Assembly (NCBI GenBank): GCA_944324175.1
Contig: CALUVH010000004.1
Coordinates: 1-64,000, forward strand
From: Candidatus Gastranaerophilales bacterium
GTDB taxonomy: Bacteria > Cyanobacteriota > Vampirovibrionia > Gastranaerophilales > Gastranaerophilaceae
Reading direction: 5' to 3'
Length of the DNA stretch: 64,000 nucleotides
Made by a program: the position numbers and the translations under genes. Within the stretch, counting starts at the first letter, position 1. Each line of letters starts with the position of its first letter. Below the pieces are notes generated by a model. That model was not told the DNA's origin. It did not search any database and worked only from the letters and a program-made list of their open reading frames with translations. This document shows positions 10,950-25,313 of the stretch, in pieces.

Positions 10950-12305
10950 ATGATGATGAAATTAAGAAATAATGTAAAAATTCCGCAGGATGCAAGATGG
11001 TTAATTCCGGGGTTGCAAGTTAAAAGATGGTTTATGCTGATATTTCTGGGAGCAGCGATGATTACTCTTGGAATATTGATTTTGATAGATATTAAGCCAA
11101 TATTTTATACGATGGAATTTATTAGAAAACTTGCTGAGCATGCATCTACTGAATGGTTGGCTTTTTCAATTATCACTCTTGGCGGTGCAATATTTTTCAA
11201 GGGTTGGGAAAAGACAAACTTGTCAATTTTAGATGGCAAAGATAACCAGACTCTTTTGGAAGCACTTTATAGAAGAAGAAAGTTAAACCGAGGTCCTAAA
11301 ATTGTTGCTGTTGGCGGTGGAACAGGGCTTTCAATGCTTTTGAGAGGGATTAAACATGTCACAAATAACGTAACCGCAGTTGTTACAGTGGGGGACGACG
11401 GCGGTAGTTCAGGGCGTTTGCGCGAAGAAATGGGAATGTTGCCTCCTGGTGATATAAGAAACTGTATTGCAGCTTTAGCTGATGATGAAGATTTGATTAC
11501 AAAGTTATTCCAATATCGTTTCAAATCAGGAGAAGGTCTTGAGGGGCACAGTTTCGGGAATTTATTCCTTACTGCACTTTGCTCAATCACTGGTGATATG
11601 GTTCGTGCAGTAAAAGAATCATCAAATGTATTGTCAATACGTGGTCGTGTCTTGCCATCTACTCTTGATGATATGAAACTTGTTGCAGAAATGGAAGATG
11701 GAAGGATCATCCATGGGGAATCTAATATCCCTGAAGCTCATGGCAGAATTAAAAGACTTTACACCGATCCTGAAAATTGTAAGGCCTTGTCTGATGTTAT
11801 TTCAGCAATTAAAGACGCAGAATTGATTATTTTAGGACCTGGAAGTCTATATACTAGTGTTATACCAAATCTTTTGATAAAAGAAATTTCAGAAGAAATC
11901 GCAAAATCGACTGCGAAAAAAATCTATGTGTGTAACATAATGACACAACCCGGAGAGACTGATGGATATGCTGTATCAGACCATTTAAAAGCTCTTATCG
12001 GTCATGCTGGTGATGAAAAAATTGTTGAAGCTGTATTAGTTAATGATTATTTACCTAATAATCTTGCTCAAAAGTATCAGCAGTCCGGCTCTTTCCCTGT
12101 AAAAGTTGATGTGGAAAATATTAAAAAACTCGGGATTAAATTGTATTCTAAAAAATTGATAGAAGATAGTAAAGAAGGACTTGTAAGACACAGTTCTAAT
12201 CGTGTTGCTAGAGCTATTTATGCTTGGTATAAAAAAGAGCATAAGCATGATAAAACGTTATTTTTTACTGCAAAAGAAGTAGAAAAACAGGACTGTAAAT
12301 TATAA
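10950..12305 (+). CDS. YvcK/CofD-like protein with two N-terminal membrane helices
   Basis: 451 residues. Two hydrophobic segments (about 28-46 and 68-87) precede a CofD-like Rossmann domain with VAVGGGTGLSMLLRGIK, TVGDDGGSSGRLREEMG and LPPGDIRNCIAAL. Family members (gluconeogenesis factor YvcK/YbhK) bind UDP-sugars and influence cell-wall precursor supply. The membrane extension resembles cyanobacterial versions as I recall them. The stop overlaps the panB start (TAATG), so it is co-transcribed with the pantothenate genes. Confidence 0.9.
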   Translation: MMMKLRNNVKIPQDARWLIPGLQVKRWFMLIFLGAAMITLGILILIDIKPIFYTMEFIRKLAEHASTEWLAFSIITLGGAIFFKGWEKTNLSILDGKDNQTLLEALYRRRKLNRGPKIVAVGGGTGLSMLLRGIKHVTNNVTAVVTVGDDGGSSGRLREEMGMLPPGDIRNCIAALADDEDLITKLFQYRFKSGEGLEGHSFGNLFLTALCSITGDMVRAVKESSNVLSIRGRVLPSTLDDMKLVAEMEDGRIIHGESNIPEAHGRIKRLYTDPENCKALSDVISAIKDAELIILGPGSLYTSVIPNLLIKEISEEIAKSTAKKIYVCNIMTQPGETDGYAVSDHLKALIGHAGDEKIVEAVLVNDYLPNNLAQKYQQSGSFPVKVDVENIKKLGIKLYSKKLIEDSKEGLVRHSSNRVARAIYAWYKKEHKHDKTLFFTAKEVEKQDCKL

Positions 12306-13180
12306 TGGTAAAAAAAATTACAACAACTACAATTCAAAAAATTAAAGACAATAATCAGAGATTTTCTATGCTTACTGCGTATGATTATTCAACAGCAAAA
12401 TACATAGATGAAGCCGGTATTGATGTGATTTTAGTAGGCGATAGTTTGGCAATGACTGCACTTGGTTACGAGACTACACATTCAGTCGGTGTTGAAGAGA
12501 TGAAAATTTTTACAAAGGCAGTAGCAAAAGGTGTAAAGCATGCAATGGTTGTAACGGATATGCCTTTTATGAGCTATCATATTGATATTGCTGACGCAGT
12601 TAAAAATTGTGGTGAGATGATTAAAATTGGTGCAAATGCTGTGAAAATTGAGGGCGCAAATGATTATATTTTTACTTTAATAAGGCGTTTGGTAGGTTCA
12701 GGAATACCGGTTATGGGGCATGTTGGTTTCACTCCTCAGTTTTTAAATACAATAGGTGGATATAATATTCAGGGAAAAAATTTTGAAAATACCGAAAAAA
12801 TTCTTGCTCAAGCAGTTGAACTTGAAAAAGCTGGTGTATTTGCTATTGTTTTGGAAATGGTTCCAGAAGAAAGCGCAAAGTATATTGGTGATAATTTGAA
12901 AGTCCCCGTAATTTCTTGCGGTGCGGGAAGATATTGTACGGGGCAGGTTATGGTATGTGATGATCTATTTGGAAAATTTTCCGAATTTAAACCAAAATTT
13001 GCACGACGTTACGGTGATATGAAATCATTAATTTTAGAGTGTGCAAGTAAATTTAATGAAGATGTTAAATCTGGTAATTATCCAAATGATGATGAAGTTT
13101 TTAATTTAAGTGGAGATGAGTTGGAAAAGTTTTTGAGTGAAACTAAATTCACTAAAACTTCGGGAGATAAATTATGTTAG
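12305..13180 (+). CDS. panB: 3-methyl-2-oxobutanoate hydroxymethyltransferase
   Basis: First committed step of pantothenate synthesis: 5,10-methylenetetrahydrofolate plus ketoisovalerate gives ketopantoate. 291 residues, slightly long for the family. Signatures: MLTAYDYSTAKYIDEAG, VILVGDSLAMTALGYETTHS with the metal-binding Asp, VKIEGAND, GHVGFTPQ, and IVLEMVPEESAKYI with the catalytic Glu. The gene overlaps yvcK by 1 base and panC by 7 bases, a tight operon. Confidence 0.97.
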   Translation: MVKKITTTTIQKIKDNNQRFSMLTAYDYSTAKYIDEAGIDVILVGDSLAMTALGYETTHSVGVEEMKIFTKAVAKGVKHAMVVTDMPFMSYHIDIADAVKNCGEMIKIGANAVKIEGANDYIFTLIRRLVGSGIPVMGHVGFTPQFLNTIGGYNIQGKNFENTEKILAQAVELEKAGVFAIVLEMVPEESAKYIGDNLKVPVISCGAGRYCTGQVMVCDDLFGKFSEFKPKFARRYGDMKSLILECASKFNEDVKSGNYPNDDEVFNLSGDELEKFLSETKFTKTSGDKLC

Positions 13181-14028
13181 TCCATACGATAAATGAAGTG
13201 AGAGAATGTATAAAAAAATGGAAAAAAGAAGGACTTACAGTTGGACTTGTTCCTACTATGGGTGCCTTACACAACGGACATTTAAGTCTAATTAAAAAAA
13301 GTGTAGAAAAGTGTGACAAGACGGTGGTCTCAGTTTTTGTTAATCCTATCCAATTTTGTCCCGGTGAGGATCTTGATAAGTATCCAAGAACGCTAGAGGC
13401 TGATGAAAAACTCTGTCAAAATGCAGGGGTAGATATTGTGTTTGCACCCTCTCCAAAGGAGATGTATGGCGAAGGTCATATTTTGTCAAATGACTTTTTA
13501 ACTTACGTGGTCCCTCCTTTCTTTTATGTAGACAAACTTTGCGGAAAGTCCCGTGTTGGTCATTTTGATGGGGTATGTACTGTTGTTAATAAATTATTCA
13601 ATATAGTTCAACCTGATTATGCGTTTTTTGGACAAAAAGATGCTCAGCAGCTTATCATAATTAAAAAAATGGTAAAAGATTTGAATATACCGGTAGAAAT
13701 CATTCCTTGTCCGATTGTTAGAGAAGAAAGTGGCCTTGCATTGAGCTCTAGGAATAAGTATTTGTCAGAAACTGATAAAAAAGAAGCATTAGCGTTAAGT
13801 AAAATTTTATTCAATATTAAAGCTTGCTATGATAAAGGAATAAAAGATGTGGATGCATTGTCTGAGACAGCATACGGCTTTTTGAATGAACATCATTCAC
13901 TAGAGTATTTAGAATTTAGGGATAAAGAAAATCTTGAACAGAAAACTCTAGCTGATGATAATACGCAAGTCTTTATTGCTTTGAGGATAGGAAGTGTAAG
14001 ACTGATTGATAATATTTTGTTAGGTTAA
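13174..14028 (+). CDS. panC: Pantoate-beta-alanine ligase
   Basis: Joins pantoate and beta-alanine with ATP to make pantothenate. 284 residues, normal length. The HIGH-like motif is PTMGALHNGHLSLI (about 28-41), followed by SVFVNPIQF, FFGQKDAQQL and the KMSKS-like SSRNKYLS. Start ATG at 13174 lies inside the end of panB, suggesting coupled translation. The beta-alanine supplier panD is in this window at 51.5 kb. Confidence 0.97.
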   Translation: MLVHTINEVRECIKKWKKEGLTVGLVPTMGALHNGHLSLIKKSVEKCDKTVVSVFVNPIQFCPGEDLDKYPRTLEADEKLCQNAGVDIVFAPSPKEMYGEGHILSNDFLTYVVPPFFYVDKLCGKSRVGHFDGVCTVVNKLFNIVQPDYAFFGQKDAQQLIIIKKMVKDLNIPVEIIPCPIVREESGLALSSRNKYLSETDKKEALALSKILFNIKACYDKGIKDVDALSETAYGFLNEHHSLEYLEFRDKENLEQKTLADDNTQVFIALRIGSVRLIDNILLG

Positions 14029-14041
14029 TGAGGTTTTAAAC

Positions 14042-14962
14042 ATGTTGAATTTTTACTATGCACAAAAGAAAATGTGGCAAATTTTGATACATTTGGTGTT
14101 TATAATCCAGATTTTTTTGTTCGGTGTAATTCTTTTGGTTACATTACATTGGTTTTTGGAGCTTGTAAATCAACAGTTTTTACAATTTGTACAGCCGATG
14201 TCAGATTTTGTGTCAGGGCTTATTAAAATATTTTACAAGCGTATGATTGAAATCGGTGGAGTAAAATTAGATGGGTCCATCTTATTATTTGATATAATTG
14301 CGATTCTTTTGATTTTTGGTGGAGCTCAATTACGTGACTTTTTTCAAAAACAGATTACTAAAATTGATATCATCATAGACAAAGTTGCGAGAGATCAGGA
14401 GGAACTTTTTAATAAAAAATTACAAGAGGATTATGAAAAACAACTATTGAAAAATTCTAATATCGGAATTTTGATTACTTATAGCCTAAAAAATGTTTTA
14501 GGAAATGCCTTTTGGTCTGAGCCGAGTAACGATTTGGTTGGAAATAAGCAAAAAGAAGTTGATAAACAAATTTATTATGCACTTTCAAAATTAAATGGTT
14601 GTAAGGTCGCAAAAACCGGTTCGCAGTTTTTGATATTGTGTTCAGATTTTGAAAAAATTGACTTTATATTGGATTATTTGAAAAAGTTGTTAGCTAAAAT
14701 TGATGAATATGTGTTAAAAAGTCAGATGACGCTCACTACTTATGTTGCACTTGAACCGTATGATAACAAGACTAATATGAAAAAAGTCTTTACCATACTG
14801 AATAAAATGCTTTCTTTGAAGATGCCCGATGAAATTATTTGCCTTGGAAATTTCCAGCTGCGCTATGAGTTTTTGAAAAAGCAGAACTATCATTTTGTAC
14901 TAAAAGGTACATATTCTATTGAAGATAATGACAAGGTTTGGGCATTGGTTAAGAAAAATTAA
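14042..14962 (+). CDS. Hypothetical membrane protein, 306 aa
   Basis: Family not recognised. Two hydrophobic segments lie near 14-40 and 80-98, followed by a charged helical linker (about 105-140) and a cytosolic alpha/beta domain containing CKVAKTGSQFLILCSDFEK. That stretch weakly recalls nucleotide-cyclase-like folds (TG-x-x-F-L-I), but no catalytic residues are evident, so this is a hint only. It follows panC by 13 bases and is probably the last gene of that operon. Confidence 0.65.
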   Translation: MLNFYYAQKKMWQILIHLVFIIQIFLFGVILLVTLHWFLELVNQQFLQFVQPMSDFVSGLIKIFYKRMIEIGGVKLDGSILLFDIIAILLIFGGAQLRDFFQKQITKIDIIIDKVARDQEELFNKKLQEDYEKQLLKNSNIGILITYSLKNVLGNAFWSEPSNDLVGNKQKEVDKQIYYALSKLNGCKVAKTGSQFLILCSDFEKIDFILDYLKKLLAKIDEYVLKSQMTLTTYVALEPYDNKTNMKKVFTILNKMLSLKMPDEIICLGNFQLRYEFLKKQNYHFVLKGTYSIEDNDKVWALVKKN

Positions 14963-14970
14963 TATATCTA

Positions 14971-14999
14971 TTGATTTTTATTTTTTTTATTGATACTAT
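14971..14999 (+). promoter_or_regulatory. Promoter of rplJ-rplL
   Basis: TTGATT and TACTAT with a 17-base spacer, directly before the L10 leader. Prediction from box match. Confidence 0.5.
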
Positions 15000-15008
15000 T
15001 AGAGTATG

Positions 15009-15100
15009 ACCGCAGACAGTAAGCGGAGTGGTGCGGAAATTCAGTAAGAATGATTTGAATAAATAGTGCGCTCCTTAATATATCAGCTTACCGAGGTTAC
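15009..15100 (+). ncRNA. Ribosomal protein L10 leader
   Basis: This stretch has the hallmarks of the L10 leader: GACAGTAAGC pairs through GTAAGC (15019..15024) with GCTTAC (15086..15091), and contains the conserved CTCCTTAATAT...ACCGAGG element. In other bacteria the L10(L12)4 complex binds this leader to repress its own synthesis. A second, A/T-rich folded part with a T run (about 15105..15175) could be a linked attenuator. Confidence 0.8.
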
Positions 15101-15213
15101 ACAAAAGTCGAAATATATTGCTGTGTAAGATTTTGCGGTTTAGGTACATATTGCAAAGTCTTTTTTGTATGTGTGCAAAAAATAGGTCGATAATATAAAA
15201 AAGGAGCTTAAAA

Positions 15214-15735
15214 ATGGCAACAAAAGCATTTAAATCAGAAAAAATAGATGCAATAAAGTCAAAAGTTGAAAAAGCCCAAGTCGCTATCTTAACAGAATAC
15301 AAAGGTTATAGTGTAGAAGAAATTACCAAATTGAGACGTGCTATCCAAAAAGATGGCGGTGATTATATGGTAACCAAAAACACTTTAGCTAAATTGGCTG
15401 TTAAGGGCACAGAGTATGAAGTTCTTGCTGATCTTTTAAAAGGACCTGTAGCTATTGCTTTTGGTTTTGAAGATCAAGTTAGCCCTGCAAAGGCAGTTGC
15501 TAAATTTATCAAAGAATCAAAAAAAGGTGCTATTTTAGGTGGAGCTTTGGATGGCAAATTATTGTCAGCTAAAGAGGCAGAAGATTTATCAAAATTGCCT
15601 TCAAAAGAAGAACTTTATGCAAAAATTCTTGGTTCAATCAACTCTCCAGCGTCTGGTATTGCAAACTCTATCAACGCAGTTATGGCACAACTTACACGTG
15701 CTATGGCAGCTGTTAGAGATCAAAAAACAGCGTAG
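15214..15735 (+). CDS. rplJ: 50S ribosomal protein L10
   Basis: L10 anchors the L7/L12 stalk on the large ribosomal subunit. 173 residues, normal length, with KAQVAILTEYKGYSVEEITKLR split across the N-terminal domain, KNTLAKLAVKGTEYEVL and the Gly-rich KKGAILGGALDGKLL. Start ATG follows AAGGAGC. Here rplJ-rplL form a two-gene unit with its own leader, about 9 kb from rplK-rplA. Confidence 0.98.
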   Translation: MATKAFKSEKIDAIKSKVEKAQVAILTEYKGYSVEEITKLRRAIQKDGGDYMVTKNTLAKLAVKGTEYEVLADLLKGPVAIAFGFEDQVSPAKAVAKFIKESKKGAILGGALDGKLLSAKEAEDLSKLPSKEELYAKILGSINSPASGIANSINAVMAQLTRAMAAVRDQKTA

Positions 15736-15852
15736 TTGGATTATTGCATAGAAGCTAATTTGTAATACAAAGTTTGGACTCACTTTGTAAAAGAAAAAAG
15801 AGTTCACAAAACTTACGAAATTACACAAAATAAAATTATAAGGAGAAAAACA

Positions 15853-16227
15853 ATGAGTAATGTAGAAACAATTTTAGAATCAATTGAAAAATTAACTTTG
15901 TTGGAAGCAGCAGAATTAGTTAAAGCTATGGAAGAAAAATTCGGTGTATCAGCAGCAGCACCTGTAGCAGTAGCAGCAGCTCCTGCAGCAGCTGGTGAAG
16001 CAGCTGCAGAAGAAGCATCTGAAGTTAACGTTATCTTGGCTTCAGCTGGTGCTAACAAAATTGCTGTATTGAAAGAAGTTCGTGCTATCACAGGTCTTGG
16101 CTTGAAAGAAGCTAAAGATTTAGTTGACGGTGCTCCTAAAGCTGTTAAAGAAGGCATCAAAAAAGAAGATGCTGAAGCTATCAAAAAACAACTTGAAGCA
16201 GCTGGTGCTACTGTTGAAATCAAGTAG
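15853..16227 (+). CDS. rplL: 50S ribosomal protein L7/L12
   Basis: Stalk protein that recruits translation factors. 124 residues: N-terminal dimer domain, Ala-rich hinge (about 35-57) and the C-terminal domain with [19 protein letters not shown] and [16 protein letters not shown]. Start follows AAGGAG. A 28-base perfect palindrome with a T run ends the unit. Confidence 0.98.
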
Positions 16228-16252
16228 TCGATTTCTCAAAGATAAATTCTTT

Positions 16253-16283
16253 AAAGGGTCTTCAAATTTGAAGACCCTTTTTT
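16253..16283. terminator. Bidirectional terminator after rplL
   Basis: AAAGGGTCTTCAAA / TTTGAAGACCCTTT is a perfect inverted repeat followed by T's. It serves rplL and probably the convergent nuclease gene, whose stop is at 16282. Confidence 0.9.
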
Positions 16284-16917
16284 AATAACAAATTTTTCTA
16301 TATTCACAAAAATCACATTTTTTTGTATGCGTAATTTCTTCAGGAGGGATGAGTTTCGAGATTTTATTACATGCTGTAATTATTGCTATTTCGTATAATT
16401 TTTCTAATTCATCGTTAAAATCTACAACGTGATTTTGATTGTTTTTGAGGTCGATATATACAAATTTTAAATTTTTAACATCGGGATATAGTTTAGATAC
16501 GCAGAGTAAGTATATCATAGTTTGAAAATCTTGTTTCGGTTTTTGAGGGATTGCTCCTGTTTTGTAGTCGAGGATGTATAATGAATCATCATCATGCATT
16601 AGTGCATCTAGTCTTCCGCCAATCCAATAATCCCCAATTTTACAAGATAGGTTATATTCTGAGTTTACATAATGTTTTTGAAAATATATGTTAGATTTTA
16701 AGGTATTCCATATCTTTCTTTCAACCTCACCTAGTGCAGGTTCAAGTTTTTCGATATTGTCGCCTCTTAGGTAGTAGTGAGCTAAAGCATGAACTTTTTT
16801 CCCCCTTTCAAACCAGCCGGATTTTTGTGGGGGTGAAATTTTTTCTACATATCTAAAAATGTATTTTTGTGGACAATCCAAAAATGTTTTTAGCATGTTA
16901 GGTGAAAAAATTAACAT
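16282..16917 (-). CDS. RecB/Cas4-type PD-(D/E)XK nuclease
   Basis: 211 residues. Motifs: FSPNMLKTFLDCPQKYIFRY near the start (first cluster Cys), RGKKVHALAHYYL (motif with His), WIGGRLDALM (metal Asp), LYILDYKTG (catalytic D-x-K) and QTMIYLL. The C-terminal CDFCEYRKIC completes a four-Cys iron-sulfur cluster as in AddB and Cas4. It overlaps the giant helicase gene by 7 bases, so the two probably form one helicase-nuclease for double-strand break processing. Confidence 0.85.
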   Translation of the reverse strand: MLIFSPNMLKTFLDCPQKYIFRYVEKISPPQKSGWFERGKKVHALAHYYLRGDNIEKLEPALGEVERKIWNTLKSNIYFQKHYVNSEYNLSCKIGDYWIGGRLDALMHDDDSLYILDYKTGAIPQKPKQDFQTMIYLLCVSKLYPDVKNLKFVYIDLKNNQNHVVDFNDELEKLYEIAIITACNKISKLIPPEEITHTKKCDFCEYRKICY

Positions 16918-19900
16918 CGTGTACCTACGCTTTCATTAATTATTTCGGTAAAAACTAAACTTGGTTGCTGGGTGGTTTCTTTGCCGAATGATTTTACTTT
17001 TTCGCTTACTGTGCAGTATAGATATTTTTTGGCTCTTGTAATTGCGACGTATAAAAGTCTTAAGTTTTCAGCCAAAAGTTCTTGCTTAAGCTCAATTTCC
17101 GTTTTAGCCTTGTAGTTAGGGTTCAATCTTTTAAGGTTTTCCATGAAATCCGAAGATTTTAATTTTATTTGAGAAATATCAAGAGTTAAGTTTTTCTCAG
17201 CCATCTCAGGTAAGAATACATAATCAAATTCATCTCCTTTTGATTTATGGAGTGTCATAATTTGGACTTTCCCTGCCAGAAACTCTTTATCACTTTCATC
17301 TTCTTCTGAGAAAAAGTTAAAACCGCTTAATCTAGGTTTTTTAGCAAGTTCTCCGAGTCTTTCAATTATAGTTACAAAGTCTTTGGTGTTTGCACCAATT
17401 CGCTTAATAAGAGTCGAAATGAGGTAGACATTTGACTTCTCAATATCCGAAGAGTAGTAGTGCAACCCGATTTTAATAGCGAGTTCATCTGCGGTTAAGT
17501 GAGGGAATGATAGCCAGTAATTAAGATCCCAGTAAAATTGAGCAAGACTCATTTTATTAATATCATCACAATTTACATTTATGAAAGGGGTTTTTAAATT
17601 ACGGATTTCAGTTCCGAGACGCTGCTCATAAAAGCCCAATTCTGCCAGAATTTCATAGCTATCGGCTATTGTATTATTATCAAAAGGTGTCTTTATCATA
17701 TTGAGAACTGAGTAGATAGTTCTGAATATTGATTTTTGTTCCAAACATTCACTTCTTGTAATGCTTTTCAGACCGCTGTCATTAATGAAACTCATCCATT
17801 GAGCGACTTGATAGTTATTACGGAGTAGAATTCCGACAGTTGCTTTCGGATCCTTTTTGAAAGCTGATTTTATTTCTTTCAAAATATAATTGCGTTCTTC
17901 TAGTCCGCTTCCAAAAATTGCGGTTTTTATGGCATTTTCACTGACAGGATTTCTACCTTCGACAGGGTGCATAAAAATTTTGTAAAATGCATTTTGGCAC
18001 TCATCTTTGGAGTCTGCCCATACAATTAAATCATTTGCGAGTTTCCATACGTCCTGTGTGCACCGTTGAGAACAATCCATGCTAACGTTTGTGCTTTCTT
18101 TAATGAATTTTCTAAAACCTTCTACATCCGCGTTGGAAAAAGTTGTGGTAATCGCTTGATTTATATCTCCACATCGGATGAGGTTTTTATGTTTTGCACT
18201 TAAAAGTTTAATAAGACGTTGTTGAATAGCGGAAGAGTCTTGTGCCTCATCTTCAATAATGTAGTGACAAATATTTTGATAGTAATTCAGTATGTCTTGG
18301 TTTTCTTCGAGTAACCTGACTGATGAAATTAACATGTCATCATAATCTATTAAGTTAGATTCTTTTAAAATATTTTGGTAGTTATCAAAAAAAGTCGCAA
18401 ATTTTTGTAATTTAGCATCTGTGAGCACTTTAGGGAAAATTCCTCCGCTCATTTTGAATACAGATACAGCTCTGTCAAATTCTTCGGATTCTGTTTTTTT
18501 CAATTTAAGCGAGTTTGAAATTTCTCTTACAATCCTTGAGCGCTGAGTATCGTCGCAAATTTCAAAATCAGAATTAAGTCCTAGGCGCTCAAAATTTCCG
18601 TTTTCCTTTAGAATTCTCAATGCGAGTCCATGAATAGTGCTGATATTTGGTAATTGTGTGGAATTTTGTCTTATATTTTTAATTCTTTCTCTGAAATTTC
18701 TTGCTGCACTTTCCATGTAAGTCATAACAAAAATATTTTCCGGATTTGCTCCCATATCCATAAGTTTTATGATGAGTAAAAGCAAAATAGTTGTTTTCCC
18801 TGCACCTGGTACAGCTGATATTGCCATTTGACCTTTTTTATATTCTAAGACAGGTCGTTGATCATCTCGAGGTGATATTTTTACAGATTTATTTTCCTGT
18901 AGTTTGTTTTCAGGCTCAGATAGTATTATGAAATTCTCTATTCCTCCGAAATTCTCAACGCCATTACCATCAAATAAGCTTGAAAGTGCAAAGATTTCTT
19001 TTTGTGCACAAAGTGTTAATTTCCTTAGAATTCTGGCGGTTTTTTCTTTGCTTAGTTCAATATTATCATCGATGGTGTATTCATCTTTACTCCAGCCTTG
19101 TTGAAAGACCCAAGCATTGTATAGTGGACCTGTATCACTTTTAATCCATTCATCACTTGAGATATCTAGCCAGAATTGATATTTTGTTTTAATTTGATTG
19201 TCAATAATTTTTTGTGGAGTACCGATTACAAGATCATTTTCTTTAATTTCTAATGTGGAATAAGGGTTTTCTGCAATTATTGAATTCTCAATTTGTGTTA
19301 TAATTTCAGTTTTTCTTGTGTCAAAATCTTCCCCAAAGATATTTTCGAAATCTTGTAGTTGTTTTATGAAAAAATTGAATTTTGTAATTTCATAAGGGTT
19401 GATAGAGGTAAATTCAGCAAGCTCGTCATATATTTCATAGACCTGATCGGATAGTTTATCTTGTGAGTTTTCTAATTTTGAAAGCAATTTAATAAATTTA
19501 TTGTATTTTTCCGAATATTCATCGAGTAGAAAATCTTGTGTGATAAATTTTTTTTCAAGGTCAAAAGTTTTTAAGATTTTTTCGCAATATTTTACAGGTA
19601 TACCTAAAAAGTCCGAGAGTATCGGGCGAATATCAAATTCGGATAATTTTTCTTTTAATGTTGTATTTAGTTTCAATATTGTAAGTACAGACAGTACGAG
19701 TCTGTTTTGTATAATTTTTTCACTTCCTGATAAAAATATCGGGTTTATAGTTTTTCTCAGAGATTCTTTAAGTGTAAATTTAAGCATTTCATCAATAACG
19801 GGCGTAATGATGGAAATTTCGCTAGGTAAAACATTTTTACTTGTTAAATCGTTAATTTTTCTAATTGCAATATCGAGCATACTGGCTCTTTTGGATGGAG

Positions 19901-20786
19901 ATTGCAGTGAAAAGTGTCTGAGGGGAATGCAGTTACATTGTGTTATGTTTTGAAAAATATTTTCTGCATCTTCAGAGGTTTCTGTTGTGGAAGGTAATTC
20001 AATGGTTTCGGCTTTGAAGATTTTTTCAAATTCCCATACGGCAAGTCTATTTGCACTCAGATAGCCGGCGCGACTGGCGCCTTTTTTATCGAATGCTATA
20101 AATGCATCTATTAGTTGAGGCGCGATGTATTTTATAAAGTCAAAGCAGACAGGTGTAATTTCATCTCCATCATCTACAATTAGATATTTTACTTTTTTGA
20201 AATAGTCTGTGTTTTTATAAATATAGTTAAATACAAGTGTTTGTCGTAAATAATCGAAATCTCTTAAAAATAACGTTTTTGCAAGGAATTTTTTCAATGC
20301 ACTTTTAGCATCATCTGCAAAACTTTCATTTAAAATATTTGAGCGCAGCTGTACATCTGCATCAGAAAGATTGTTTTGTACAATTAACGAGTAACGTCTA
20401 AACAGTTGATGAAGTAATGATTTTTTTGAATTATATCCCTTGAATTGGACTGATTTAATTATATCTTTGAGGATAAATTGTGATACTTCAAGTCCGGCAA
20501 GGTTTGGTAAAATTGTTGGATTATTGTATGGATTTCCGTTTTCAATTAATGCCCAATTATCACATATGGCATTGTACACAAGTGAGAAAAAAGAATGTAC
20601 TTGCAATTTTTCACTGATATCAATAGTTAGACCTTGTAAAGTTTGCTCTATAAATTTATTTTTCAGGGTGGAATTTTGCACTAAAACAAGAATTTCAGAA
20701 GAACTTATGCCTTTGTTCAAAAGCTCTGTATATTTCTCTATTAACAACTCAGTTTTTTTAGATGAAATATTCCCTTCAATTAGCAA
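16911..20786 (-). CDS. Tandem UvrD/PcrA-type helicase, N-terminal half degenerate (AddAB-like)
   Basis: 1291 residues. The C-terminal half is a full SF1 helicase: Walker A SAVPGAGKTT near 655-664, IIEDEAQDSSAIQQRL near 845, TLHKSKGDEFDYVFLP near 1180 and LLYVAITRAKKYLY near 1245. The N-terminal half begins like a second P-loop (LIEGNISSKKTELL) where the GK of Walker A reads KK, and has YLIVDDGDEIT near 205 in place of the DExQ box, so it looks like an inactivated helicase as in AddB. A PD-(D/E)XK nuclease gene overlaps its 3' end. Likely role: recombinational repair; not proven. Confidence 0.85.
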   Translation of the reverse strand: MLIEGNISSKKTELLIEKYTELLNKGISSSEILVLVQNSTLKNKFIEQTLQGLTIDISEKLQVHSFFSLVYNAICDNWALIENGNPYNNPTILPNLAGLEVSQFILKDIIKSVQFKGYNSKKSLLHQLFRRYSLIVQNNLSDADVQLRSNILNESFADDAKSALKKFLAKTLFLRDFDYLRQTLVFNYIYKNTDYFKKVKYLIVDDGDEITPVCFDFIKYIAPQLIDAFIAFDKKGASRAGYLSANRLAVWEFEKIFKAETIELPSTTETSEDAENIFQNITQCNCIPLRHFSLQSPSKRASMLDIAIRKINDLTSKNVLPSEISIITPVIDEMLKFTLKESLRKTINPIFLSGSEKIIQNRLVLSVLTILKLNTTLKEKLSEFDIRPILSDFLGIPVKYCEKILKTFDLEKKFITQDFLLDEYSEKYNKFIKLLSKLENSQDKLSDQVYEIYDELAEFTSINPYEITKFNFFIKQLQDFENIFGEDFDTRKTEIITQIENSIIAENPYSTLEIKENDLVIGTPQKIIDNQIKTKYQFWLDISSDEWIKSDTGPLYNAWVFQQGWSKDEYTIDDNIELSKEKTARILRKLTLCAQKEIFALSSLFDGNGVENFGGIENFIILSEPENKLQENKSVKISPRDDQRPVLEYKKGQMAISAVPGAGKTTILLLLIIKLMDMGANPENIFVMTYMESAARNFRERIKNIRQNSTQLPNISTIHGLALRILKENGNFERLGLNSDFEICDDTQRSRIVREISNSLKLKKTESEEFDRAVSVFKMSGGIFPKVLTDAKLQKFATFFDNYQNILKESNLIDYDDMLISSVRLLEENQDILNYYQNICHYIIEDEAQDSSAIQQRLIKLLSAKHKNLIRCGDINQAITTTFSNADVEGFRKFIKESTNVSMDCSQRCTQDVWKLANDLIVWADSKDECQNAFYKIFMHPVEGRNPVSENAIKTAIFGSGLEERNYILKEIKSAFKKDPKATVGILLRNNYQVAQWMSFINDSGLKSITRSECLEQKSIFRTIYSVLNMIKTPFDNNTIADSYEILAELGFYEQRLGTEIRNLKTPFINVNCDDINKMSLAQFYWDLNYWLSFPHLTADELAIKIGLHYYSSDIEKSNVYLISTLIKRIGANTKDFVTIIERLGELAKKPRLSGFNFFSEEDESDKEFLAGKVQIMTLHKSKGDEFDYVFLPEMAEKNLTLDISQIKLKSSDFMENLKRLNPNYKAKTEIELKQELLAENLRLLYVAITRAKKYLYCTVSEKVKSFGKETTQQPSLVFTEIINESVGTRC

Positions 20787-20941
20787 ATCAATACTCCTCC
20801 TGTAGTAAATTATACCATAAATTAGTTTAAAATTTACTTTAAACTAATACTATTATACTATTGCCTTTTTTAGAAAATTGGACTAATATAATTATTGTAA
20901 ACGGAGACGTTAGTAGAAAAAGAAATCGCATGGAGGTTAAC

Positions 20942-21151
20942 ATGATGCAAGAATTACAAGAACAAATCGGATTTTCAGCAGGTCAAATCTATGATTACTT
21001 GAACAACAATGGTGAAACAACTTTCGCTAAAATGAAAAAAGAATTAGATTTAAAAGGAAACTTTGCAGATTTAGGTCTTGGTTGGTTAGCTAGAGAAGAT
21101 AAAGTTGAAATTTCTAAAAAAGGTTCTTCAGTTAACGTAAGACTTAAATAG
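20942..21151 (+). CDS. Small winged-helix domain protein
   Basis: 69 residues from ATG 20942, which follows GGAGG at good spacing; an upstream in-frame extension to 20861 lacks support. The sequence (IGFSAGQIYDYLNNNGETTF, WLAREDKVEISKKGSSVNV) fits the small winged-helix family PF10771. It probably binds DNA or acts as an adaptor; targets unknown. A single gene with a strong terminator. Confidence 0.8.
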   Translation: MMQELQEQIGFSAGQIYDYLNNNGETTFAKMKKELDLKGNFADLGLGWLAREDKVEISKKGSSVNVRLK

Positions 21152-21175
21152 TTTTATCGGTTTTATTTAATTATT

Positions 21176-21210
21176 AAAAAAGCACTCCGATGTTTATGGG
21201 GTGCTTTTTT
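21176..21210 (+). terminator. Terminator after the winged-helix gene
   Basis: AAAAAAGCACTCC pairs with GGGGTGCTTTTTT across an 8-9 base loop and ends in six T's. A weaker hairpin (AGCCTCAACATTGTTGAAGCT, 21 bases split) follows at about 21222..21243. Confidence 0.85.
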
Positions 21211-21267
21211 GAGCAATAAAAAAGCCTCAACATTGTTGAAGCTGTAATCTTTTTCTTTAATTCTCGT

Positions 21268-21297
21268 GTAGTAGTAAGTAGTAGAAGGTAGTAGTTT
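21268..21297. repeat. Three GTAGTAG repeats at 10-base period
   Basis: GTAGTAG occurs at 21268, 21278 and 21288, each followed by three variable bases. A 10-base period puts the copies on one face of the helix, as for a cooperative protein-binding site. It lies about 150 bases upstream of coaD. No known operator recognised. Confidence 0.5.
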
Positions 21298-21354
21298 ATA
21301 AAAGTCTTTTTAAATCGTCCTCGTATATATATAAAGTATTTTTTACATATAAAA

Positions 21355-21382
21355 TTGACATATTAAATTGATTTGTTACAAA
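21355..21382 (+). promoter_or_regulatory. Promoter of coaD
   Basis: Consensus TTGACA, 16-base spacer, TACAAA. About 65 bases before the ATG at 21446. Confidence 0.45.
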
Positions 21383-21445
21383 ACTTAATAAATCTATGGC
21401 GATATTTGAATTATAATTATTGAGATAAAATGCAAGAGGAAAAAT

Positions 21446-21925
21446 ATGAAAATAGCGATATACCCAGGGAGTTTTGATCCCATAACAAAGGGACATTTAG
21501 ATGTTCTTCATACTGGAACTGAAATTTTTGATAAAGTAATAATTGCAGTTGCTAAAAATTCTGAAAAAAAGGGATTTTTAACAGTAGATGAGCGCGTTGA
21601 ACTGATCAAAAAAAGTGTTGGTCATTTGGAAAATGTTGAAGTGGATTGTTTTGAAGGACTTACAATAGAGTATGCCAAGCAAAAAGGTGCACAAATTTTA
21701 TTGAGGGGATTGCGTGCTGTTTCTGATTTTGAGTACGAAATGCAACTTTCTCAAGCTAATAGTGCTCTTTCAAGTGATATAAAAACAGTTTTTTTGATTA
21801 CAAAACCAAAATATAACTTTATTTCTTCAAGTACGATAAAAGAAATTTTTTTAAATGGCGGAGATATTTCGAAATTTGTACCAGAGGCAGTAGATTCTTA
21901 TTTAAAAACGCGCAATAAATTGTAA
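21446..21925 (+). CDS. coaD: Phosphopantetheine adenylyltransferase
   Basis: Transfers AMP to 4'-phosphopantetheine, the penultimate step to coenzyme A. 159 residues, normal length. Key motifs: AIYPGSFDPITKGHLDVL with the T/HxGH nucleotide site (about 4-21), LLRGLRAVSDFEYE, and the ISSSTIKEI signature. Start follows AAGAGGAAA. It extends the CoA pathway begun by panB, panC and panD in the same window. Confidence 0.97.
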   Translation: MKIAIYPGSFDPITKGHLDVLHTGTEIFDKVIIAVAKNSEKKGFLTVDERVELIKKSVGHLENVEVDCFEGLTIEYAKQKGAQILLRGLRAVSDFEYEMQLSQANSALSSDIKTVFLITKPKYNFISSSTIKEIFLNGGDISKFVPEAVDSYLKTRNKL

Positions 21926-22002
21926 TATATGCACTTTTTCTAGCCTTAATTATTTGACAATTTATTTTTGCTTTTGTAGAATGTAATTATTGAAAGGGAT
22001 AT

Positions 22003-22611
22003 GTGATAACAATGCAACAAAACGGTGTATATGATTTATTAAAAATGTTAGAAATTTCTTTGGAGGAAGGTTTTCCGATAATACCTAGAAAGTTTACAGT
22101 AGTAAAAACCAAAGAAATCGAAACTCTAATTGATAGGATTTATGCTTCATTACCGGTAGAAGTACAAGAAGCAAGAGCGTTTTTAAGGCGCAGAGAAGAA
22201 TTACAAATAGAAGCACAGCAAAAAGCTGAAAAGATAATCAGTGATGCTCAAATGGAAGCAGATAGAAAGTTGAGTGAAGCAGATTTTATAAAGGCTTTAG
22301 AACGTGAAGGAATAAGAATTAGAACTCAGGTTCAACAAGAGTGCGAAGAAATAAAAAGAAAAGCTGCCGAGGAAGCAGAGAATATTAGATTGCAGGCAAC
22401 AGAAGATGCAATGAAGACTCGTGAAGGTGCTGAGTTGTATGCTGAGCAGGTATTGACTAATTTAGAACAAGACTTGACTCAATTACAACAAGTCGTCAAA
22501 AATGGTCAGATTTATATGGAAAAATTGAGATCAGAATCTTTAGGCGCAGGTCTTGAAGGTGGTTATTCTGACCGTGGAAAAAATCGCGCAGGTGATTTTG
22601 TCATCAGATAG
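22003..22611 (+). CDS. Coiled-coil protein (ATP-synthase-b-like / DivIVA-like)
   Basis: 202 residues. The N-terminal about 60 residues are compact (YDLLKMLEISLEEGFPIIP), followed by a long coiled coil from about 65 to 165 rich in Glu, Gln, Ala and Lys (EAQQKAEKIISDAQMEADRK). No membrane segment. Such proteins are often annotated as ATP synthase subunit b, but the missing anchor argues against that. GTG at 22003 is 3-4 bases after AAAGGGA, ATG at 22012 about 12 after, so the start is uncertain. It sits just after coaD. Confidence 0.7.
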   Translation: MITMQQNGVYDLLKMLEISLEEGFPIIPRKFTVVKTKEIETLIDRIYASLPVEVQEARAFLRRREELQIEAQQKAEKIISDAQMEADRKLSEADFIKALEREGIRIRTQVQQECEEIKRKAAEEAENIRLQATEDAMKTREGAELYAEQVLTNLEQDLTQLQQVVKNGQIYMEKLRSESLGAGLEGGYSDRGKNRAGDFVIR

Positions 22612-22630
22612 TCGTTTTAAAAATTAACCA

Positions 22631-22662
22631 AAAAGAATGCTCTGTTTATTGAGCATTCTTTT
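22631..22662 (+). terminator. Terminator after the coiled-coil gene
   Basis: AAAAGAATGCTC / GAGCATTCTTTT stem with an 8-base loop and T run. Confidence 0.85.
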
Positions 22663-22734
22663 CTGTATAGAAAGTTTACAAAATGTTTGCATTTTATTTT
22701 GTTTGATTTAATATATAAGTATAAGCCGAAAAAG

Positions 22735-22764
22735 GAGAATGTGAAAGAGAACACATTCTCTTTT
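22735..22764 (+). terminator. Hairpin in the rpmG leader (possible attenuator)
   Basis: GAGAATGTG / CACATTCTC, a 9-bp stem with an 8-base loop and TTTT, lies about 60 bases before the rpmG start and after the preceding gene's own terminator. It may control entry into the rpmG-secE-nusG-rplKA run. Confidence 0.5.
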
Positions 22765-22825
22765 AAAAAGCCACAAGGCAAGTGTAAAGTAAAAAGTTAC
22801 TATAATAAATATAAAGGAATAGAAA

Positions 22826-22993
22826 ATGGGTATCAAAGGAAAAAATGACAGAATGGTAGTTCTAGCATGTGAAGATTGCAAAGAAAGAAACTACACAACA
22901 GTAAAAAATAAGAAAAATATTAAAGAAAGATTAGAGTTGAGCAAATATTGCCCAACTTGTAAAAAACATACCAACCACAAGGAAACAAAATAA
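22826..22993 (+). CDS. rpmG: 50S ribosomal protein L33
   Basis: 55 residues: [20 protein letters not shown] at the start, [19 protein letters not shown], and two CxxC pairs (CEDC, CPTC) marking the zinc-binding form of L33. Start follows AAAGGAA. It heads the conserved order rpmG, tRNA-Trp, secE, nusG, rplK, rplA. Confidence 0.97.
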
Positions 22994-23035
22994 GTCTATA
23001 TTAAAAAGTGGCAGTATTCAGCTGTCACTTGATGA

Positions 23036-23108
23036 GCGTCCTTAGTTCAGTTGGTAGAACGTCGGTCTCCAAAACCGGATGTCGAGGGTTCGAGTCCTTC
23101 AGGGCGCG
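23036..23108 (+). tRNA. tRNA-Trp (CCA anticodon)
   Basis: 73-base cloverleaf: acceptor GCGTCCT / AGGGCGC with one T-G pair, D stem GTTC/GAAC, anticodon loop CTCCAAA, T loop TTCGAGT, discriminator G; CCA not encoded. Its place between rpmG and secE is common in bacteria. Confidence 0.95.
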
Positions 23109-23133
23109 ATTTTATAAGATAAAGGATATAACT

Positions 23134-23325
23134 ATGAATGAAACAGTTAATGCGATACAGACATATTTAAAAGGTGTAAGGGCAGAATGGGGTAAAATAA
23201 TTTGGCCGGAAAGACGTCAAGTCGTGGCAGAGACCATTTTTGTAATAGCGATTGTGTTTGTATTTACTGTTGCGGTTTATCTTATGGACTTAATATTCAA
23301 AGGCTTGTTTGGTTTAATAAAATAA
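23134..23325 (+). CDS. secE: Preprotein translocase subunit SecE
   Basis: 63 residues with the family signature VRAEWGKIIWPERRQVV then one membrane helix (about 33-58). SecE stabilises SecY in the Sec channel. The ATG at 23134 follows AAAGGA; the open frame upstream runs through the tRNA and is not coding. nusG follows after 43 bases. Confidence 0.96.
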   Translation: MNETVNAIQTYLKGVRAEWGKIIWPERRQVVAETIFVIAIVFVFTVAVYLMDLIFKGLFGLIK

Positions 23326-23368
23326 TTGTTGCCGAGAAAATCGGAATTAATAAAGATATAGGTGGCTT

Positions 23369-23995
23369 ATGACAAAAAAAGAAAAATCAATGGCAGAACA
23401 GTTGAATGAAGAAAAAGCACTAGAAGCAGCGCAGGCTCAAGCTGAAGAAGATGAAAAAAAAGCTAAAAAAGCCCAAAAACGCTGGTATATAGTTCATACA
23501 TATTCAGGTTACGAGAACAAGGTTAAGGTAAACTTAGAAAAACGTATTGAGTATATGAATATGGGCGATAAAATTTTCAGGATTGAAGTGCCTCAAAAAA
23601 CTGTGACCCAAATGAAGGGTGGTAAAAAACAAGAAAGAGAAGAAAAAATATTCCCTGGCTATGTTCTTGTTGAGATGATAATGGATGAAGATAGCTGGTA
23701 TGTTGTAAGACACACTTCAGGCGTTACAAAGTTTGTTGGCTCAGCAAAACGTCCAATACCTGCTCGAGACAGCGAAATTAAAAAGATTATTAACCGTTCA
23801 TCTTCTCAAGTCCAAAAAATTGAATTGGATGTTAAAGCAGGTGATAAAGTTAGAATTATTTCAGGTCCTTTTGCAGACTTTATTGCAGATATTATTGAAG
23901 TATATCCTGATAAATCAAAGCTCAGAGCAAATGTTTCAATATTTGGTCGTGAAACGCCTGTCGAGTTAGAATATAAACAAATTAACAAATTATAA
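23369..23995 (+). CDS. nusG: Transcription termination/antitermination protein NusG
   Basis: 208 residues. An acidic/Lys-rich N-terminal extension of about 37 residues (KALEAAQAQAEEDEKKAKKA) precedes the NGN domain (RWYIVHTYSGYENKVKVNL, IFPGYVLVEM) and the KOW domain (AGDKVRIISGPFADF). NusG couples RNA polymerase to the ribosome and to Rho. The extension is longer than in E. coli. Confidence 0.97.
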   Translation: MTKKEKSMAEQLNEEKALEAAQAQAEEDEKKAKKAQKRWYIVHTYSGYENKVKVNLEKRIEYMNMGDKIFRIEVPQKTVTQMKGGKKQEREEKIFPGYVLVEMIMDEDSWYVVRHTSGVTKFVGSAKRPIPARDSEIKKIINRSSSQVQKIELDVKAGDKVRIISGPFADFIADIIEVYPDKSKLRANVSIFGRETPVELEYKQINKL

Positions 23996-24094
23996 TTTTA
24001 AAAACACTAAAGTTAAAAAGTGCGCGTAAGCGCGAAGGTAAAACAAAGTAATGTGGAAGGGACGCCCCCGCTATAACCACAAAAGGAGAAAAAA

Positions 24095-24523
24095 ATGGCA
24101 AAAAAAGTAGTAGGAAAAATTAAGCTTCAAATAGAAGCAGGAAAAGCAAATCCGTCACCTCCGGTTGGTCCGGCATTGGGTCAGCATGGTGTGAACATTA
24201 TGGATTTTTGTAAGCAGTTCAATGCTAAAACAGAATCACAAGCAGGATATATTATCCCTGTTGTAATTGATGTGTATGAAGATAGAAGTTTTTCTTTTAT
24301 CGTAAAATCACCACCTGCACCGGTTTTGATTAAAAAAGCGTTGAATTTACCAAAAGGTTCAGCTGTTCCTAATAAGGATAAAGTTGGCGAAATTACTCAA
24401 GCTCAGTTAGAAGAAATTGCAAAAATCAAAATGAATGACTTGAATGCTACAAGCTTGGAAGCAGCAGTCAATATGATTAAAGGTTCTTGCAGAGCTATGG
24501 GTGTTACGGTAAAGGCAGAATAA
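24095..24523 (+). CDS. rplK: 50S ribosomal protein L11
   Basis: 142 residues, normal length, with [35 protein letters not shown] and the C-terminal RNA-binding part ending [11 protein letters not shown]. Start follows AAAGGAG. The 99-base gap after nusG contains a short GC hairpin (GTGCGCGTAAGCGC region near 24020). Confidence 0.98.
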
Positions 24524-24587
24524 TTAAGGATGGAAGGATATTTATCGGTTAGATAAATTCCGTTACTACCATGAAAGGAAAAAACAA

Positions 24588-25313
24588 ATGGCAAAATTAA
24601 CTAAAAAACAACAAAAAATGCAGCAAATGCTTGAAGGGTTTGTGCAACCTGCTAGTGCTGTAGATACAATTAAAAAATTAAAAGAAATTTCTAAAGAAGT
24701 TTCAAAGTTCAATGAAACAGTTGAATGTCACATGAGATTAGGTATTGACGTTAGACAAGCTGATCAACAAATTCGTTCAACCGTTGTGTTACCGGCAGGT
24801 CTTGGTAAAACAGTCAGAGTTTGTGTTATTGCAAAAGGTCCAAAGGTAAATGAAGCAAAAGAAGCTGGAGCTGATTTTGCTGGTGCTGAAGAAATTATTG
24901 ACAAGATTTCTGATGGCTGGTTTGAATTTGATACCTTAATTGCGACTCCTGATTGTATGGGTATGTTAGGTAAATTAGGTCGTGTATTGGGACCTAAAGG
25001 TTTGATGCCAAACCCTAAGACAGGTACAGTTACAATGGATATTGCCAAAGCTGTTAAAGATGCTAAGGCTGGTAAAGTTGAGTTCAGAGCTGATAAGCAG
25101 GGGATGATTCACTGTCCAATCGGAAAAGTTGAATTTTCAGAAGAAGACCTTGTAAAAAACTATGCAACTTTAGCTGATGCAATTTTGAGAGCAAAACCTG
25201 CTTCAGCTAAAGGTACATTTGTAAAATCAGTTTACCTTGCAACAACTATGGGACCTGGTTTGAAATTGGATCCTAAGACTTTTGCTGCAGAGGTAAAAGA
25301 ACTTGTTTCATAG
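24588..25313 (+). CDS. rplA: 50S ribosomal protein L1
   Basis: 241 residues with the L1 signature [20 protein letters not shown] (about 126-145) and [21 protein letters not shown]1 forms the tRNA-exit stalk and often represses its own mRNA. A strong terminator follows directly, so rplJL are not in this transcript. Confidence 0.98.

Follow-up and report, generated by a model that had tools for sequence, protein, structure and literature searches.

What might a single bacterial protein do that appears to hold two helicases, one of them degenerate, and that is encoded next to a separate nuclease? This question is raised by a 64,000-nt stretch of Candidatus Gastranaerophilales DNA (contig CALUVH010000004.1; the whole stretch is hereafter called the window), in which an open reading frame (ORF) for a 1291-aa helicase with a TTG start (16911-20786, reverse strand) overlaps by 7 bp an ORF for a 211-aa PD-(D/E)XK nuclease (16282-16917, same strand). 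We consider it probable that the locus encodes a three-part helicase-nuclease processing double-stranded DNA (dsDNA) ends, which does the job of AddAB or RecBCD in Cyanobacteriota that have neither. The observations on which this reading is based are the architecture, the motif states, the predicted folds, the gene order, the occurrence of the parts in a fused or a three-gene arrangement, their joint absence and their near-complementarity to RecC and AddB.

The two helicase halves and the nuclease

A first-pass annotation of the window had described the 1291-aa protein as an inactive superfamily 1 (SF1) unit fused to an active UvrD unit. Out of 199 confirmed relatives, the 80 best loci were used for the locus counts; the motif counts in Gastranaerophilales refer to 81 sequences, i.e. 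these 80 loci and the window. The C-terminal half (C-half, residues 634-1291), which we call UvrD2, matches the families UvrD-helicase (PF00580, E 4.3e-49, residues 642-897) and UvrD_C (residues 1136-1262), and its Walker A (AVPGAGKT), motif II (DEAQD) and motif VI (TRA) are each intact in 81/81 sequences. It ends 40 residues past the motif VI arginine, and no PDDEXK_1 match was found in the fusion. Against the AddA equivalog model TIGR02785 it reached 95.4 bits, the cut-off being 707.65.

In the N-terminal half (N-half, residues 1-633), the Walker A lysine is kept in 81/81 sequences and the glycine before it in 2/81; motif II reads DDxDE in 81/81, with an aspartate at the site of the catalytic glutamate, and the motif VI arginine is found in 0/81. 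The motifs of the window (GNISSKKT and DDGDE) are thus as the first-pass annotation had read them. No Pfam or NCBIfam family had its best-scoring stretch inside the N-half when the whole 1291-aa ORF was scanned, and the best match in a sequence-profile search of the PDB was UvrD with E 0.018. The AlphaFold2 model of the N-half (single chain, 21 sequences) had a pLDDT of 79.2 and a pTM of 0.79. Compared with known folds using VIA-align and Foldseek, this model gave SF1A-type matches along residues 1-626; those of VIA-align were to UvrD/Rep/PcrA (Z 20-28), AdnA/AdnB (Z 22-24), RecB (Z 16-20) and residues 4-696 of AddB (Z 21-22, with an alignment of 565-572 residues). Structure prediction of this half had been named beforehand as a check on the annotation, and an SF1 fold is what was found. 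AddB was not singled out by the fold search, in which UvrD and Rep had higher Z values and HelD, SLFN11 and FBH1 were matched too.

By hhalign, the profile of the N-half aligned with that of its own C-half with a probability of 98.1 (E 1.1e-13) over 594 columns, i.e. most of its length, and only weakly with one AddB sequence (E 0.007) and with a 901-aa AddB-like protein (E 0.012). Since the PDB sequence matches were no better than the value given above, it is the predicted fold, together with this alignment between the two halves, that ties the N-half to helicases. According to the predicted model, the N-half in Gastranaerophilales is an SF1 helicase fold minus the catalytic residues, and the motif losses suggest that it is inactive there.

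The nuclease matches PDDEXK_1 (E 1.5e-23). It also passes the NCBIfam Cas4 equivalog model TIGR00372 (73.9 bits, cut-off 65), and may for this reason be annotated as a CRISPR protein. Cys15, Cys201, Cys204, Cys210, His43, Asp104, Asp117-x-Lys119, Gln132 and Tyr136 are invariant in all the 27 aligned rows, and the four cysteines have the Cas4/AddB-type layout, from which an Fe-S cluster may be expected. The claim of a separate, overlapping PD-(D/E)XK nuclease was sound. The predicted model (pLDDT 91.6) is closest in fold to the nuclease domain of AdnA (Z 16.6) and to ACE1, a cyanobacterial Argonaute-associated Cas4 protein (Z 15.9), followed by RecE (Z 13.3), AddB (Z 12.6) and CRISPR Cas4 (Z 11.8).

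Distribution and gene order in Cyanobacteriota

The fused helicase ORF was present in 80/80 loci, as the annotation's call for the same fusion in relatives would have it, and the nuclease follows it in 78/80. In the remaining two loci, which are similar to each other (L092 and L096), the fusion is present and no nuclease ORF was detected beside it. Among the sampled genomes of the window's family, 84/85 carry the N-half; the exception is G115, whose match (2.1e-4) was counted as absent, through either a deletion or a gap in the assembly.

Outside Gastranaerophilales the N-half is a separate ORF, of about 660-820 aa where a full-length match was listed. On the contigs of five genomes (G013, G021, G026, G041 and G044) the N-half, UvrD2 and the nuclease are adjacent genes, in this order and on the same strand, and the same order was seen in G050 on a short contig, both ends of which cut the outer genes. 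In G007 and G016 the N-half adjoins UvrD2 and then the contig ends, and in G035 UvrD2 adjoins the nuclease, with the N-half on another contig. Since the same order is found elsewhere as separate genes, the Gastranaerophilales gene is a fusion of the first two. In five single-contig genomes (G002, G011, G022, G027 and G177) a distance of 60 kb or more separates each of these genes from the others; we infer that these scattered-gene lineages are photosynthetic. Stand-alone N-halves had no Pfam or NCBIfam match in 3/3 proteins scanned, so that the gene is possibly invisible in annotation.

The state of the N-half motifs depends on the lineage. In 8/8 rows the scattered-gene homologues retain both a GK[T/S] in Walker A and the arginine of motif VI, with a motif II that lacks the glutamate, and for this reason they may still bind ATP or split it slowly. 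In the operon lineages 5/5 rows have lost the lysine of Walker A as well as the arginine of motif VI; the row of G035 keeps the Walker A and has lost the arginine. On these motifs, the word "inactive" fits the losses in Gastranaerophilales and is not valid for the scattered-gene homologues, i.e. a dead N-half is specific to certain lineages.

In the helicase tree, the Gastranaerophilales C-halves, the operon genes, the scattered genes and the gene of G035 form one UvrD2 group (26 rows, 100/99). The PcrA-like rows (100/99) lie outside it, as do RecB and AddA together (96/91), AddA being represented by a single sequence. The UvrD of G035 was placed with PcrA in an earlier tree and with UvrD2 in this larger one. 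Two identities were tried for UvrD-type genes of the window's genome (G000) and rejected. The C-half is not PcrA: the only other UvrD-family helicase above the cut-off in that genome is a PcrA-like gene at C25 (the label is ours, given from the PF00580 scores), and the two kinds form the separate tree groups just described. A weak PF00580 match at C5, a 1039-aa ORF with 18.3 bits, is below the cut-off and was ruled out as AddA. In the nuclease tree, the operon-type and scattered-type sequences join at 100/99, and the node that adds those of Gastranaerophilales has 89/83 and carries a long-branch warning; outside this group are the UvrD-fused nucleases, one AddB, two AddB-like nucleases and the second-type nucleases of L137 and L139, again with long-branch warnings. 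The three blocks of these two trees recur in that of the N-half, at 100/100 each and with long-branch warnings.

These trees bear on the proposal of the first-pass annotation that the locus is AddAB with its parts rearranged. Taken literally, AddB would have had its nuclease cut off, AddA would have lost its own, and the remainder would have been fused. Such a descent appears improbable. The component kinds are indeed the same, the nuclease is split off and AddB is among the fold matches of the N-half; however, UvrD2 stands apart from RecB and the one AddA, the nuclease stands apart from AddB and the AddB-like nucleases (on branches that carry the warnings above), and the AddB signal of the N-half is no better than the E value obtained with one sequence. 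The annotation was right on the look of the parts and too narrow on their identity, which on our reading is that of a three-part system present in most of the sampled genomes and made of unfused genes elsewhere in the phylum; the evidence gives no support to the parts being AddA's and AddB's own.

For the distribution, profiles of the N-half, UvrD2 and the nuclease were each run on the same 194 sampled genomes of Cyanobacteriota, and a part was considered present at thresholds of 1e-20, 1e-65 and 1e-19, respectively. The cases closest to the thresholds were, for UvrD2, G010 (5.2e-63, absent) and G035 (2.1e-69, present) and, for the nuclease, G001 (5.0e-19, absent) and G160 (5.1e-20, present). 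The best nuclease match of some genomes may be of the second type, because the nuclease profile includes the rows of L137 and L139, and in draft genomes, such as G047 with a completeness of 74%, an absence may reflect a gap. A PF00580 search of 16 chosen genomes, kept out of the counts, agreed with the distribution.

All three parts were found in 165/194 genomes, none in 20 and only a part of them in 9. The 20 genomes without the N-half (12 of family f28, three of f2, and G001, G047, G085, G115 and G151) were all without UvrD2 and the nuclease, too. Five N-half genomes lacked UvrD2 (G010, G029, G032, G118 and G131) and five lacked the nuclease (G007, G029, G051, G152 and G190). When f28, which is one family, and f1, in which the genes are linked, were set aside, 83 of the remaining 97 genomes had all three parts, 7 had none and 7 had some, and absence of the N-half was still joint with that of the other two parts in 7/7.

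The joint absence also concerns the possibility that the N-half and UvrD2 are a fork helicase or translocase, the nuclease being merely a neighbour. We find this quite doubtful. The nuclease is missing beside the fusion in 2/80 loci and, at the threshold used, in five N-half genomes, and the genes are unlinked in the scattered-gene genomes, all of which would suit a mere neighbour; on the other hand, the nuclease adjoins UvrD2 in G035 though the N-half lies elsewhere, and it is missing in 20/20 genomes without the N-half.

RecC was found in 17/194 genomes, including all the 12 genomes of f28, which have none of the three parts. AddB was strong, below its curated cut-off, in 4/194 genomes, all of f3, and no genome was above this cut-off. 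RecC or AddB was present in 21 genomes, 13 of which had none of the three parts, 4 some and 4 all; in the 173 genomes without them the corresponding numbers were 7, 5 and 161. In G001, which has none of the three parts, an AddB-like gene adjoins an AddA-like gene; this pair, like the RecB/RecC of G189, is below the NCBIfam cut-offs. Profile searches of the window's own genome found no AddB, no RecC (PF04257) and no second PDDEXK_1 protein, in agreement with the absence of canonical addAB and recBCD that the first-pass annotation required. In f3 (G001, G007, G016, G029 and G050) AddB is strong in 4/5 genomes and, depending on the genome, all, some or none of the three genes are present; this lineage is perhaps exchanging one system for the other.

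The proposed function and its alternatives

By its defining features the system is not AddAB, RecBCD or AdnAB. It resembles AddAB in having one active SF1A motor together with a helicase-like part without complete catalysis, and in the four-cysteine layout of its PD-(D/E)XK nuclease; the N-half has, from its predicted model and motifs, the features of an SF1A-fold helicase-like part without catalytic residues. Unlike in AddAB, the motor and the pseudo-motor here share one polypeptide, whose motor part carries no nuclease, this being a protein of its own. AddB combines in one chain a helicase-like N-terminus and a C-terminal Fe-S nuclease, which are here split, and AddA has a C-terminal RecB-type nuclease, whereas UvrD2 has no nuclease and falls in another tree group than the single AddA sequence. 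With RecBCD the system shares the proposed job, and in the phylum it is nearly complementary to RecC; the differences are that the window's genome has no RecC and that the motor has no fused nuclease. In AdnAB each chain carries a motor and a nuclease, whereas here the nuclease is separate and is the sole PDDEXK_1 protein of the genome, and one of the two motors is degenerate; the likeness is in the folds, the AdnA nuclease domain being the closest to our nuclease and AdnA and AdnB being among the close folds of the N-half. Solo-Cas4 and ACE1 proteins share the nuclease fold and cysteine layout, and Cas4 would be the NCBIfam name of the window's nuclease; the proteins of L137 and L139, presumably ACE1-like, nevertheless fall outside the system's nuclease group. 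UvrD-Cas4 fusions also combine a UvrD helicase with a Cas4-like nuclease, which are separate ORFs here, and the proteins of about 1020 aa from L130-L133, seemingly of that kind, are in separate tree groups.

Passages of Hudaiberdiev et al. 2017 (PMC5704561) describe, chiefly from Clostridiales, a UvrD/Cas4-like operon whose genes are not fused, and propose UvrD-Cas4 fusions as defence parts; in these passages no pseudo-helicase is mentioned for either. The Clostridiales operon may be related to this system. Among the titles and abstract openings of papers listed in searches of the open-licence PMC literature we recognised no description of the system, and one may exist in subscription journals.

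In the mechanism that we propose, the parts would be active as a complex. The C-half would be the sole working motor in Gastranaerophilales and would translocate 3'-5' from a DNA end, and the N-half, fixed to it, would be a clamp and a single-stranded DNA channel guiding the strands. The N-half would possibly also scan the sequence for a Chi-like signal, as in AddB and RecC, whose inactivated helicase domains (N-terminal in RecC) recognise Chi according to the relevant part of PMC4824097. The separate nuclease, probably with its Fe-S cluster, would bind to this pair and cleave a strand as it emerges, leaving a tail on which RecA could be loaded for repair. Because there is one nuclease, versus two in AddAB, strand control would be nearer to that of RecBCD.

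Such an enzyme would fit a gap described in cyanobacteria. Sections of PMC5101192 report recBCD in marine Prochlorococcus and Synechococcus, the well-studied models being without recB, recC or recD, and presynaptic mechanisms of unknown kind are suspected in a passage of PMC1193525. Family f28 probably corresponds to the picocyanobacteria. In the portion of PMC10653904 on a transposon screen of Synechococcus elongatus, loss of ago, cas4, uvrD, recJcy, rpoD2 or locus 0992, a PD-(D/E)XK hypothetical protein, improved the conjugation or maintenance of RSF1010, and the same losses are said there to benefit transformation; S. elongatus also has PcrA. As a lead, the non-PcrA uvrD of the screen would be UvrD2, and 0992 possibly a part of the system.

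The same screen, which ties UvrD, Cas4-like and PD-(D/E)XK proteins to the intake of foreign DNA, favours a different main job, that is the degradation of incoming plasmids, phage and transforming DNA with little repair of the chromosome. This we regard as unlikely, though worth keeping in sight. The C-half matches the GajB models of Gabija (E 1.8e-49), and the UvrD-Cas4 fusions, although distinct, are put forward as parts of defence systems in the passages of PMC5704561 cited above; however, GajB matches are expected of any UvrD-type helicase. The system is nearly phylum-wide and its neighbours in the window include rplJ, rplL and coaD, with no evident defence island; moreover, 13/20 genomes with none of the three parts carry RecC or an AddAB-like pair. 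The screen fits both repair and defence, because RecBCD also degrades foreign DNA.

Several points weigh against dsDNA-end processing as the function. The proteins are known here from sequences, distributions and single-chain predicted folds, UvrD2 does not branch with AddA or RecB, and the main text of PMC7125226 mentions neither UvrD nor a helicase. The thresholds were chosen after the values were known, and each profile holds rows from genomes that were then searched. Nine sets are incomplete, two of them (without UvrD2) in genomes that are 99% complete, G118 and G131. Since f28 is one family, its 12 genomes may represent one event. Among the 165 complete sets, four are accompanied by RecC (G004, G018 and G053) or AddB (G016), and some genomes do without all of these systems, since RecC and AddB are both absent from 7 of the 20 genomes in which the three parts are missing.

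With the chances about equal for and against, we suggest more broadly that the three genes (a pseudo-helicase, UvrD2 and an Fe-S-type nuclease) are a further bacterial class of DNA-end-processing system beside RecBCD, AddAB and AdnAB. It would be old in Cyanobacteriota and would fill the place of the missing presynaptic enzyme in the model cyanobacteria; in f28 RecBCD would have taken over from it, and in part of f3 AddAB. One motor would be at several stages of dying, with Walker A and arginine kept in the scattered-gene lineages, partly lost in Gastranaerophilales and gone in the operon lineages. If this is true, one of the suspected presynaptic mechanisms consists of three genes and is directly testable in transformable cyanobacteria, part of the published S. 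elongatus screen (PMC10653904, in the portion cited) may be explained, work on Argonaute in S. elongatus gains a RecBCD-like candidate partner, and the lineages offer a natural series of an SF1 motor turning into a scaffold.

Locus features and side observations

Table 1. Position in the window of the elements discussed, with the evidence for each
Feature	Coordinates	Strand	Evidence
N-half, residues 1-633, SF1A-fold pseudo-helicase (predicted)	18888..20786	-	predicted fold, profile alignment, motif counts
Degenerate Walker A GNISSKKT, residues 5-12	20751..20774	-	ORF translation, motif counts
Degenerate motif II DDGDE, residues 205-209	20160..20174	-	motif counts
Cys593 in place of the motif VI arginine	19008..19010	-	N-half/C-half profile alignment and counts
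C-half (UvrD2), residues 634-1291, UvrD-type helicase with intact motifs	16914..18887	-	family searches, motif counts, tree
Intact Walker A AVPGAGKT, residues 658-665	18792..18815	-	motif counts
Intact motif II DEAQD, residues 846-850	18237..18251	-	motif counts
Motif VI Arg1251	17034..17036	-	motif counts
PD-(D/E)XK nuclease, 211 aa, invariant Cys15, 201, 204 and 210	16282..16917	-	family search, alignment, predicted model
DUF2582 winged-helix ORF, 69 aa, divergent, upstream of the helicase start	20942..21151	+	same arrangement in 78/80 relatives

The divergent DUF2582 ORF upstream of the fusion is repeated in 78/80 relatives, and its winged-helix product is a possible regulator. By eye, no cas1 or cas2 was recognised among the 17 ORFs of 12000-25000, a region on which no profile search for them was made.

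Several relatives in Gastranaerophilales (L130-L133) have a single-chain UvrD-PDDEXK protein of about 1020 aa, which is absent from the window's genome; G115, in which no fusion was found, carries one of them (L131). We rejected the possibility that these proteins are a normal AddB, since in L130, the only one of them scanned, a UvrD and a nuclease share one chain, as in the UvrD-Cas4 fusions. Near the protein, L130-L132 have an ORF with a shared ..KPRYSRxSDIL.. start, which by eye resembles a WYL-type regulator. Some scattered-gene genomes have an AddB-like protein of 900-940 aa with a C-terminal nuclease (L135:5094-7799 and L136:6431-9256); no AddA was evident beside it, and in G002 the AddB-like gene is about 13 kb from UvrD2. 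Finally, G140 (genus g13) has besides the fusion a second, AddAB-like pair (L134:4465-9507), in which the gene for an 819-aa UvrD helicase comes after that for an 860-aa protein with PDDEXK_1 at its C-terminus, and a PDDEXK_1 ORF of similar length is present in five other g13 genomes.

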